Part shown: positions 19,647-23,449 of the stretch, one piece after another
Position numbering within the stretch: position 1 is the first letter of the stretch
Layout: each line of letters starts with the position of its first letter
DNA from: Lepidurus packardi
Taxonomy: Eukaryota > Arthropoda > Branchiopoda > Notostraca > Triopsidae
NCBI GenBank assembly: GCA_023053545.1
Contig: JAKZAN010000001.1
Span: 6,654,565 to 6,718,564, forward strand
Reading direction: 5' to 3'
Length of the DNA stretch: 64,000 nucleotides
Translations under genes and position numbers: made by a program
Notes under the pieces: generated by a model
The model's database searches: none
What the model saw: the letters and a program-made list of their open reading frames with translations, nothing else
What the model was told of the DNA's origin: nothing

Positions 19647-22600
19647 ATGGGGAACCCTTCGTTACCGCGCCGCGATCAAGTGTAAGTTTGCAGATTTGAG
19701 CAGATTTTATTGAATGATTTTTCTCTTCGTCTAGTGTTTTTCTTGCTTCCAAAAGAGGGATTTGTCTGCCTTGAAAGCCGAGGCTGACACCGAAGATCAT
19801 ATAATACCTTTAGAAGAGCTCTGTTCTAAATTTTCAACTCACCCCGAGCGTGTATGTTCTTTAAATTCTCGGTAAATTAGAGATCAAGTTCAAATTCTTG
19901 GTTTCCCTAGGGTCTAAGCCAGGCGCAAGCTTTGGCTCATTTACTTAAATACGGCCCCAATGAATTAACCCCCCCACCGGTGACTCCAGAATGGGTAAAA
20001 TTCGCGAGAAATTTGCTAGGTGGAATCCAAATTCTCCTTTGGGTTGGGTCAATTTTGTGTTTTATTGCTTTCGGTGCTGGTGCTGCGATTGGGGAATTCG
20101 TCGTCTACGACAACGTAAGGATAACCATTTTTGTGTTTGAGGTGCCTATATTTATATTGAAATTTAGTTGTATTTGGCTATCGCCATTGTCGTGGTAATT
20201 CTTGTGACGGGTGTCTTTACATATATGCAAGAAGCGAAGAGTTCTCAAATTATGGATTCTTTCAAAAACATGGTGCCAGAAGTACGTCTGTATCGAATTT
20301 GGTTAATCTGGATTTTAAAACTAACCTATGTTGTATAGAGTGCACTAGTGATTCGAGATTCAGTGAAAAGGGACATCAAAGTTAGCGAAGTTGTAATTGG
20401 AGACTTGGTAGAAGTCAAATTCGGCGATCGCGTCCCTGCGGATATTCGAATCATCGCTTCTCAAAGCTTCAAAGTCGACAACTCGTCTTTAACGGGAGAA
20501 TCCGAGCCACAACCTCGATCCCCCGAATACACTAGCGATAATCCGTTAGAAACCAAGAACTTGGCCTTCTTTTCGAGTAACGCTGTAGAAGGTAACACGT
20601 ATATTTAATTTTCGCTGTAAAATAAAAAAAAAATAAGAAAAAAATTATTCTTAGGAACGGCACAGGGTATAGTGATCAACGTTGGCGATTCTACGATCGT
20701 GGGAAGAATTGCAGGTCTCGCGTCGGGTTTGGAAGCAGGGCCTACGCCGATCGCTCAAGAAATCGGACACTTCGTACACATCATTAGTGCCATTTCTTTC
20801 TCTTTCGGTGGGATTTGCTTTGCAGCGGCCATGATATTGGGCTATGATTGGGTTTCAGCCATCATTTTCTTGATTGCCATCATTGTAGCCTACTGTCCCG
20901 AAGGTTTACTCGCTACGGTGACGGTCTGCCTGACATTAACAGCCAAGCGAATGGCCCGTAAGAATTGCTTGGTCAAAAATTTAGAAGCGGTGGAAACACT
21001 GGGATCCACTTCGGTCATTTGCTCGGACAAAACGGGTACTTTAACCCAGAATCGCATGACAGTAGCTCATATGTGGTTCGATGATGCCATCGTGGATATT
21101 GATACGACTGAAGACTCTTCTGGAGCAGCTTTCGATAAGTCTGCTCCTGGTTTTGAAAATCTATCGAGAGTTGCTACGCTGTGCAGTCGCGCGGAATTCA
21201 AAGCAGGCCAACAAGATTTGCCGATTAGAAAGCGCGATGTTAACGGTGATGCTTCCGAGGCCGCCATACTTAAGTGCATGGAAATGATCAAAGGTGATGT
21301 GATGGGTTACCGGCATAGTCATCGGAAAGTTTGCGAGATCCCTTTTAATTCTAGCAACAAGTACCAAGTAAGTTAACGATTTTCAATTACCGTCTTTTAT
21401 ACTAGTTCCTTATGCATAGTCCGTTCAAACCGTTTTGATTTTGCTTGCTACGTGTAGGTATCGATCCACTTGACAGAAGGAGCAAGTGGGACCCAGCATT
21501 TATTAGTCATGAAAGGTGCTCCAGAGAGAATAATAGAGCGCTGTTCGACCATTCTCATTAAAGGCCAAGTGGTGCCCTTAAACGACGCCAGAATTGCAGC
21601 CTTTACCAAGGCCTACCTAACCTTGGGCAGTATGGGAGAGCGTGTTTTGGGTAAGATGTGACCCACTTCGGTTCAGTTTCTTTCTTTTTTTGTCTGTCCT
21701 TGAAAGACCTAAAGTGGGAACTAACATAATCATGATTCTGGACAGGTTTTTGTGACACTATGTTGCCTTTGGACGAGTTTCCTCTTGGCTTTCACTTCGA
21801 TCCTGACGAGGTCAATTTCCCTTTAAACGACTTGCGATTTGTAGGACTTTTGTCCATGATCGATCCTCCGCGTGCTGCTGTACCCGATGCTGTTAGCATG
21901 TGTCGTTCTGCAGGCATTAAAGTGGTAATGGTTACGGGTGACCATCCAATTACGGCTAGAGCCATTGCTAGATCTGTCGGAATTATTTCGGAAGGCAGCG
22001 AGACCGTAGAAGATATTGCAGAGCGGCTCAATATTCCAGTAGCTGAGGTTAATATGAAATCAGCTAACGCTGCAGTGATCAACGGGGGCGAGTTGAGGGA
22101 TATGAAGCCTGAGCAACTGGACGGGATTATTGCCAACTTTAATGAGATTGTGTTTGCACGAACATCGCCTCAGCAAAAGCTCATGATCGTGGAAGGATTC
22201 CAGCGTGCGGAGTATGTCGTAGCAGTTACTGGTGATGGAGTTAACGACTCGCCTGCCTTAAAGAAGGCAGACATTGGAATTGCTATGGGGATCACGGGCT
22301 CGGATGTTTCTAAACAAGCAGCCGATATCATTCTCCTCGACGATAACTTTGCTTCCATTGTCACTGGGGTTGAAGAAGGGCGGTTAATCTTTGATAATTT
22401 GAAAAAAACCATTTGCTACACCATGACGTCCAAGATTCCAGAACTGATTCCCTATATCTTACTTATGTTTGCTGGCATTCCTTTAGCTCTGGGAACCATT
22501 ACTATTCTAGCTGTCGATCTGGGTACAGATATGGTAGGTACTTAAAAAAAGAATATAAAGGCGTTTCTCATTTTTTAAAAATTATTTTAGATGCCAGCCA

Positions 22601-23449
22601 TTTCATTAGCCCATGAAAGTGCAGAATCTGATATCATGACAAGACCTCCTAGACGTTCTACGGAAAAACTAGTCAGCGGGAAGTAAGTTGATGCTAATTT
22701 ATAATCCTACCCAAGGTACAGATGATTTTCTTCGTATTTCTCAGACTCCTTGGGCTAGCATTTTGGCAGATTGGAGTACTAGAAACGTTAGCCGCATTTT
22801 ATACCTATTTTGTGATTCTTGCCGAGAACGGCTTCTTACCTTCAGATGTGTTTGGAATTCGTGCCCATTGGGAATCCAGAGCAATTAATGACTTGCAGGA
22901 TTCATATGGTCAAGAATGGGTATAAGATCAATTGAAATTTATTTAACCCAAAAATTAATTCCCGAAATTACATTTTCATTAATTCTACAGACTTACGACG
23001 CCCGCAAAAGTCTGGAGTTAACATGCTATGCCGGCTTTTTCTTATCAATTGTTATGGTACAATGGGCCACACTAATTGCTTGCAAAACCCGTCGACTATC
23101 AATTTTCGAGCAAGGAATGAAGTACGTTCTAAGTTATAGACGTATTTCAATTCATTTTTTTAAATTATTTAAAGGAACGGTATGTTGAACTTCGCTTTAG
23201 CCTTTGAAACGGCCGTAGCTGCACTGTGCATATACACGCCTTTTTTCAACACCGCTGTTCAAATGGCTTCGATTAGGTAAAGCCATTTTACTAGAAAAAT
23301 AAATAACTCATAATTATGAAATTTATAGGTGGAATTGGTGGTTTACAGCATTACCATTTACTTGTCTATTATTTGTTTATGAGGAGTCTAGGAAGTTCCT
23401 TATCCGTCGCAATCCCAAAGGATGGTTGAGTCAGGAAACATATTACTAG
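19647..23449 (+). CDS. Divergent Na+/K+-ATPase alpha subunit 3 (NKA3) with altered ion-binding residues
   Basis: Third tandem pump gene, about 1004 residues with a shortened N-terminus lacking [10 protein letters not shown]. Exons: 19647-19681, 19758-19851, 19911-20114, 20168-20281, 20339-20591, 20655-21367, 21458-21650, 21746-22533, 22591-22682, 22745-22919, 22991-23121, 23175-23276, 23329-23449. The catalytic core is intact: [12 protein letters not shown] (Asp358), [20 protein letters not shown]-terminal ETYY. Three transport-site positions differ from both paralogues: M4 AYCPEGLL (Tyr313 where Na+ pumps have Asn324), M5 TSKIPE (Lys765 for Asn776), and M8 QWAT (Thr for Asp926). M6 DLGTDM is kept. 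The Gln111-equivalent is Gly100. Exon structure lacks two introns of NKA1 and has one of its own (21651-21745). The coding frame is open and the changes are targeted, so this looks like a specialised pump rather than a pseudogene. The first exon/intron junction is the least certain part. Confidence 0.9.

Follow-up and report, generated by a model that had tools for sequence, protein, structure and literature searches.

A sodium pump paralogue of Lepidurus packardi with lysine in the ion pocket and an apparently relocated site-III carboxylate

How many ions can a sodium pump carry once the residues of its ion pocket have been replaced? The question is raised by a 64,000-nucleotide stretch of the Lepidurus packardi genome (108.6 Mb in 344 contigs), hereafter the window, which covers positions 6654565-6718564 of contig JAKZAN010000001.1 (here C1) and carries three adjoining genes for the Na,K-ATPase alpha subunit. 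The third of these, NKA3, departs from the canonical residues in transmembrane helices M4, M5, M7 and M8. Lysine-tethered sodium pumps with a changed ion:ATP ratio are the subject of functional reports from Artemia and of proposals for fish; the genome studied here adds two lysine pumps, in one of which a carboxylate has apparently moved from M8 to M7 and so rebuilt site III. On balance, the residues and trees described below suggest that NKA3 is probably a functional, specialised P2C pump, lysine-tethered and of reduced stoichiometry, for which two Na+ against one K+ (2Na:1K) is the favoured option. Together with its paralogue NKA4 and Artemia alpha2KK, NKA3 offers a series of natural mutants in which to ask what number of ions a P-type pump transports and which residue sets that number.

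Gene model and ion-pocket residues of NKA3

Spliced by hand, NKA3 comprises 13 exons. Its open frame runs to 1011 codons, with ETYY at the C-terminus; all 12 introns are GT-AG and there are no internal stops.

19647..23449 (+), NKA3, whole gene
19647-19679, 19735-19851, 19911-20114, 20168-20281, 20339-20591, 20655-21367, 21458-21650 (+), NKA3 exons 1-7, hand model
21746-22533, 22591-22682, 22745-22919, 22991-23121, 23175-23276, 23329-23449 (+), NKA3 exons 8-13, hand model
21026..21028 (+), Asp365 (GAC), the phosphorylated Asp of DKTGT, hand model
22516..22530 (+), DLGTD of M6, with the Asp804 and Asp808 positions kept, from the alignment

Splice-aware alignment to the Daphnia magna alpha subunit reproduces exons 2-13 and the end before the stop. 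The first exon differs, and the exon 1/2 junction is uncertain: its donor reads GTGTAA, and the GTAAGT found two bases on requires a different acceptor. The product contains DKTGT, TGES, PEGL, GDGVNDSP and the C-terminal ETYY and can be aligned over its full length, as is characteristic of the P2C Na,K-ATPase alpha family; identity to database alphas is mostly 64-67% over about 98% of its length (best 120 of 7979 matches). NKA3 is an intact Na,K-ATPase alpha gene with its catalytic motifs kept.

Pocket residues were compared in an alignment of 278 rows, made up of 273 database proteins (labelled P0072, P0097 and so on), the four L. packardi alphas NKA1-4 and Artemia alpha2KK. The database proteins are the best 120 of 7979, of 243 and of 7987 matches, which overlap; the collection of 243 was chosen by exact words shared with M5-M6 of NKA3 and is thus enriched for Lys776 and PLALG. 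Because the sample is partly word-selected and drawn from the best 120 of each collection, its share of Lys776 is no natural frequency. Residue numbers are those of pig alpha1, assigned by motif; pocket numbers other than those named in the next sentence are what we take the pig numbers to be. For Tyr771, Ser775, Asn776, Pro778, Glu779, Gln923, Trp924, Asp926 and Glu954 the numbering agrees with PMC9463140.

20891..20893 (+), Tyr320 (TAC) at the Asn324 position, M4; Tyr in 4 of 273 rows that have a residue here
20894..20896 (+), Cys321 (TGT) at the Val325 position, M4; Cys in 1 of 273 rows
22432..22434 (+), Lys772 (AAG) at the Asn776 position, M5; Lys in 62 of 278 rows of the Lys-enriched sample
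22782..22784 (+), Glu849 (GAA) at the Gln854 position, M7; Glu in 3 of 273 rows
23069..23071 (+), Thr921 (ACA) at the Asp926 position, M8; Thr in 1 of 266 rows

The canonical set Asn324, Asn776, Gln854 and Asp926 is absent from NKA3, which has Tyr, Lys, Glu and Thr instead. In M7, Tyr847 is Phe and Gly848 is Trp (Trp in 1 of 276 rows); Cys802 is Ala (6 of 278) and a Pro of the M5-M6 loop is also Ala (112 of 278). Retained are Glu327, Tyr771, Thr772, Thr774, Ser775, Pro778, Glu779, Asp804, Thr807, Asp808, Gln923, Trp924, Cys930 and Glu954. An earlier note on this DNA, made from its letters alone, had placed the Tyr, Lys and Thr codons exactly where they are found here; its Lys765 becomes Lys772 in the spliced model, and the changes at 854, 847, 848 and 325 had escaped it. 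It further stated that the Tyr/Lys/Thr combination was not known to it as described. The triple itself is confined to NKA3 (1 of 278 rows, 261 of which have letters at all three positions), but the Tyr and Lys pair recurs in NKA4, in the snail Physella and in P0171. The gene was not found in a literature search; Artigas 2023 lay outside the reach of that search, so that absence from print is not established. The description of all three positions as ion-coordinating is loose for Asn324, whose gastric counterpart, Tyr340, contributes indirectly (PMC8481561).

What had been read as loss of the site-III Asp holds as far as Asp926 is Thr. It is not a simple loss, since a Glu has been gained at Gln854, the counterpart of which is a site-III ligand close to Pro778 (PMC9463140). 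Asp926 is missing from 35 rows, of which one has no letter at 854; in this set Glu854 occurs only in NKA3. Because the one carboxylate goes as the other comes, the formal charge, summed over nine positions of the pocket, is -5 in NKA3, as in NKA4; it is -6 in NKA1 and -4 in both alpha2KK and Oncorhynchus P0166. The site-III carboxylate of NKA3 appears, from the aligned residues, to have moved from M8 to M7 and not merely to have been lost.

The two other rows with Glu854 are P0206, which ends before M8, and Lymnaea stagnalis P0192, an alpha that has both Glu854 and Arg930. The sodium pump reportedly works as 2Na:2K once an Arg has been introduced into its M8 (PMC10812997) and, by analogy, P0192 may be another pump of altered stoichiometry.

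Constraint on the catalytic domains

At 252 alignment columns at least 99% conserved in 272 rows, NKA3 carries 12 changes, distributed very unevenly: 1 of 159 columns in the A and P/N domains versus 11 of 93 in membrane helices, loops and termini (Fisher p 1e-4). The test was chosen after inspection of the sequence and its outcome varies with the limits set for the P domain, alternative segment borders giving 2/161 versus 10/91 (p 9e-4). The skew was not reached in any of 10 other rows tested, for which changes in catalytic domains and elsewhere were, respectively, 1/159 and 3/93 (NKA4), 2/159 and 2/88 (alpha2KK), 1/159 and 0/93 (P0175, and likewise P0166), 0/159 and 1/94 (P0169), 24/192 and 8/105 (P0151), 2/159 and 2/94 (P0187), 1/161 and 0/93 (P0214), 0/159 and 3/96 (P0186) and 0/159 and 3/94 (P0157), with p 0.05 for each of the last two. 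The M8 motif used for this domain split and for the state changes discussed below did not read Lymnaea, P0171 and P0204. The pattern of NKA3 fits an ATPase that works and is under constraint, but whose transport part has been remodelled.

A pseudogene reading was rejected, the frame being intact and constraint being confined to the catalytic domains.

Sodium pump genes of the genome and the descent of NKA3

NKA3 lies 1.3 kb 3' of NKA2, in identical orientation.

2274..9575 (+), NKA1, canonical alpha with Asn, Asn and Asp at 324, 776 and 926, splice-aware alignment
14167..18343 (+), NKA2, canonical in the same way, first exon uncertain, splice-aware alignment

NKA1 and NKA2 are canonical, as had been claimed (ANVPEG, TSNIPE and QWAD), and NKA1 is 87.4% identical to its nearest named alpha, that of Daphnia magna. 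A whole-genome search, in which only the best candidates were scored, yielded a fourth alpha, NKA4, on another chromosome (C3:8244455-8248591, minus strand). Once spliced it reads AYVPEG, TSKVPEV and QWAD, that is Tyr/Lys/Asp. Tyr324 and Lys776 are common to NKA3 and NKA4, so that among the three residues singled out by the earlier note Thr926 alone is private to NKA3; as each occurs in two genes that lie on different chromosomes, the Tyr and the Lys are unlikely to be sequencing errors. The DNA pattern for TSKIPE has 3 matches in the genome (reversed control 3 and 2), of which only the NKA3 site lies inside any of the four alpha genes. NKA3 is 67.6% identical to NKA4, 66.1% to NKA2 and 64.5% to NKA1. 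Between NKA3 and NKA4 the proportion of differing nonsynonymous sites (pN) is 0.22 versus a saturated synonymous proportion (pS) of 0.84; the synonymous rate dS is infinite in 5 of 6 pairs, and the ratio dN/dS is therefore not interpretable. The best PDB match of the whole NKA4 is Artemia alpha2KK (8k1l). For the beta subunit, the PF00287 domain was matched at a single place, C2:657754-661033. Daphnia pulex, for comparison, has six annotated alphas (PMC3793950).

Trees were built with residues 324, 776 and 926 masked, one from a hand-chosen subset of 24 rows and one from 50 of 55 sequences (Nk52, P0245, P0072, P0097 and P0103 left out). In the 24-row tree NKA1-4 fall with Daphnia and Artemia (100/97, 8 rows), and NKA3 groups with NKA4 and P0145 (100/98), the support being 84/96 once alpha2KK is added; the 50-row tree likewise unites NKA3, NKA4, P0145 and alpha2KK, with 95 in the approximate likelihood-ratio test (SH-aLRT). 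The tree that the earlier note proposed thus joins NKA3 firmly to NKA4 and less firmly to alpha2KK. Lys776 is common to all four. NKA3 would, on this evidence, belong to a branchiopod lysine-pump clade with NKA4 and, at moderate support, alpha2KK. P0145, in which M4 is missing, is 80% identical to NKA4 over 671 columns. As NKA3 stands outside NKA4 and P0145 (99/94, 24-row tree), the split between NKA3 and NKA4 may be older than that from the source of P0145, unless the long branch of NKA3 (0.98, versus 0.24 and 0.26 for NKA4 and P0145) pulls it out. The position of NKA3 next to NKA1 and NKA2 suggests a tandem copy as the origin of the lysine pumps. The four genes have 9 of 19 intron positions in common.

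A recent origin of NKA3 as a tandem duplicate of NKA1 or NKA2 was rejected, an exclusive clade of the three, the only form tested, having a p of 0.000145 in the approximately unbiased test (p-AU); the intron positions do not settle the matter.

Further multi-exon P-type ATPase loci, about 30-55% identical per exon to the alpha query, were found at C5:7657605-7659966 and C1:6847677-6849912. The small contigs C43, C130, C141, C171 and C280 carry P-type ATPases about 30% identical to alphas (that of C43 a frame of 827 codons without stops), possibly from bacterial contaminants or symbionts.

Comparison with known pumps

Among pumps studied functionally, Artemia alpha2KK would be the closest relative of NKA3. 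The NKA3 exon that encodes M5 finds its best PDB match in alpha2KK (431 versus 427 bits for the next). Like NKA3, alpha2KK has Lys776 and, in common with many other sampled rows, Ala for Pro in the M5-M6 loop, and both fall in the same clade in the trees that held them. Unlike NKA3 it has Lys at 324 and keeps Asp926 and Gln854; NKA3 has Tyr324, Thr926 and Glu854, besides Phe847, Trp848 and Cys325. The earlier note had described alpha2KK as having Lys at both Asn positions and moving fewer ions per ATP: the alignment confirms the lysines, and 2Na:1K is given for this brine-shrimp pump in PMC10812997. NKA4 and P0145 share Lys776 and Phe847 with NKA3, and NKA4 also Tyr324, but they keep Asp926 and Gln854 and have shorter branches.

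Within the sample, Lys776 without Asp926 is found in NKA3 and in five fish rows only, all of these with Val926 (Hucho P0161, Esox P0164, Oncorhynchus masou P0166, Sander P0221 and Perca P0224). P0166 also lacks Gln854 (Leu) and, unlike NKA3, has Asn324. The fish rows on the tree (P0121, P0130 and P0166) are far from NKA3, and the fish lysine alphas therefore have an independent origin. The title of Jorgensen 2008 reportedly names lysine and valine changes of trout and salmon alpha1a, which the five rows fit. In that work the lysine was proposed to lower Na+:ATP for freshwater uptake (PMC6987325), although in Anabas the freshwater and seawater isoforms both have it (PMC4006040). The salt-induced Artemia pump to which the earlier note had compared NKA3 therefore does not imply a specialisation of NKA3 for high salinity.

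Outside arthropods and fish, Physella acuta P0175 has Tyr324 and Lys776 like NKA3; unlike NKA3 it keeps Asp926 and Gln854, and it groups with other gastropods. The gastric H+,K+-ATPase does have Tyr at the Asn324 position of M4, as had been stated (equivalence per PMC8481561). Its M5 Lys, however, stands one residue earlier, at the Ser775 position, and it has Glu804, Ile924 and Arg930 where NKA3 has Asp, Trp and Cys (PMC9463140, PMC8481561). The M4 Tyr does not make NKA3 H,K-ATPase-like overall: membership of that family was rejected on Ser775, Asp804, Trp924 and Cys930, all of sodium-pump type.

The Asn/Lys state at 776 changes at least eight times on the 50-row tree, the rows with Lys776 coming presumably from teleosts, gastropods, rotifer-like animals, ostracods, nematomorphs, flatworms and other groups. 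In this Lys776-enriched sample, position 324 is Tyr, Lys, Trp or Val in 8 rows, every one of them with Lys776, and Met in 8 others, every one of them with Asn776. The repeated changes at 776 and the constant company of Lys776 with an altered 324 suggest an order of steps in which Lys776 came first, M4 second and site III last. Tyr with Lys also occurs in P0171, and Lys with Lys in alpha2KK and P0204. The partial alphas P0171 and P0204 group with Rotaria (SH-aLRT 99) and are possible rotifer lysine pumps.

Proposed mechanism and alternative explanations

In the mechanism we propose, the side chain of Lys776 would reach into the pocket and act at site I, as in alpha2KK, as a tethered cation, with the result that the pump would carry one K+ and one Na+ fewer. 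Tyr324, which replaces Asn, would pack against M7, whose Tyr847 has become Phe, and site III would be rebuilt by transfer of the carboxylate from Asp926 (now Thr) to Gln854 (now Glu). Should Glu854 and Thr926 still coordinate Na+, the result would be 2Na:1K; should Glu854 pair with Lys776, it would be 1:1. The former is preferred because the pocket charge of NKA3 equals that of NKA4. With a lower stoichiometry, the cell could hold a steeper Na+ gradient for each ATP spent, an ionoregulatory epithelium being a plausible site: at 55 kJ/mol, -70 mV and a Ki/Ko of 30, Nao/Nai is calculated to reach at most about 76 with 3:2, about 3.7e3 with 2:1 and about 2e8 with 1:1. The specialised lysine pump of lower stoichiometry, already suggested by the earlier note, is a reasonable inference given the match of the M5 exon to 8k1l and the trees with alpha2KK, even though Tyr and Lys are not peculiar to NKA3, NKA4 and Physella having them too.

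Several observations weigh against it. The link to alpha2KK stays below an ultrafast bootstrap of 95 (84, with 59/91 when NKA3 is removed and 87/88 without NKA4 and P0145), and the introns are mixed, one position being shared by NKA3 and NKA4 only, one by NKA1 and NKA2 only and two by NKA2 and NKA4 only. The M3-M4 segment of NKA3 best matches a mammalian-type alpha-4 (158.5 bits; 146.3 for alpha2KK). As alpha2KK has Lys and not Tyr at 324, its stoichiometry is not simply transferable. The long branch of NKA3 (0.86-0.98), with many private changes, fits relaxed or altered function too. The replacement of Asp926 by Glu854 rests on alignment, not on coordinates, and since neutralisation of Asp926 in human alpha3 is reported to cut Na+ affinity more than 100-fold (PMC9463140), site III of NKA3 may simply be dead.

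One alternative is an electroneutral pump of one Na+ (or H+/Na+) per K+, which would have reached gastric-like stoichiometry from a sodium pump: Lys776 would block site I and neutralise Glu854, Thr926 would empty site III, and only site II would work. We regard this as unlikely, though deserving of weight, given that strict H+ selectivity has been proposed to require both a destroyed site III and, at site I, a tethered cation (PMC9463140), that NKA3 has Tyr at the position of gastric Tyr340, whose change to Asn is among five mutations giving a two-K+ gastric pump (PMC8481561), and that Glu854 with Arg930 in Lymnaea P0192 suggests that an inserted positive charge can find its partner in Glu854. 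However, Ser775, Pro778, Trp924 and Cys930, a set of four that renders the non-gastric H,K-ATPase sodium-type (PMC9463140), are all of sodium-pump type in NKA3, and its formal pocket charge is no lower than that of NKA4. Rather doubtful too, and no more probable, is an arthropod 1:1 exchanger of one Na+ or one H+ per K+, with Lys in site I, a gastric-like Tyr324 and a Glu854-Lys pair shutting site III.

Less likely again is a transport-dead or signalling or scaffold paralogue with a pump-independent role. Pump-independent roles have been suggested for nematode CATP-1, of which, however, a pump-impaired allele also has effects (PMC11631496); and while the long branch and the 11 of 93 near-invariant columns changed outside the catalytic domains would suit a scaffold, the catalytic domains are almost unchanged (1/159), and Asp804, Asp808, Glu327 and Glu779, for which a scaffold has no need, are kept. 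A decaying tandem copy or assembly error, its odd residues due to drift or base errors, is what the closeness and shared orientation of NKA2 might bring to mind. It is very improbable and already largely refuted by the intact 1011-codon frame over 13 exons, the independent presence of Tyr and Lys in NKA4, the rejection of an exclusive clade of NKA1, NKA2 and NKA3, and the pN of 0.22 between NKA3 and NKA4 beside a saturated pS.

Other features of the window

The M6-M7 stretch of NKA1 is encoded by three alternative 95-bp exons, and three further features were recorded 3' of NKA3.

6396-6490, 7355-7449, 7979-8073 (+), alternative exons of NKA1
23715-24137 (+), frame for an ADA2-like adenosine deaminase N-terminal domain (PF08451), starting immediately 3' of NKA3
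34357-38181 (+), uninterrupted open reading frame (1274 aa) whose residues 35-190 form a NACHT domain, an NLR-like crustacean gene
38659-38731 and 38879-38953 (+), a pair of tRNA-Val (TAC) genes separated by about 150 bases, both with the same Rfam score

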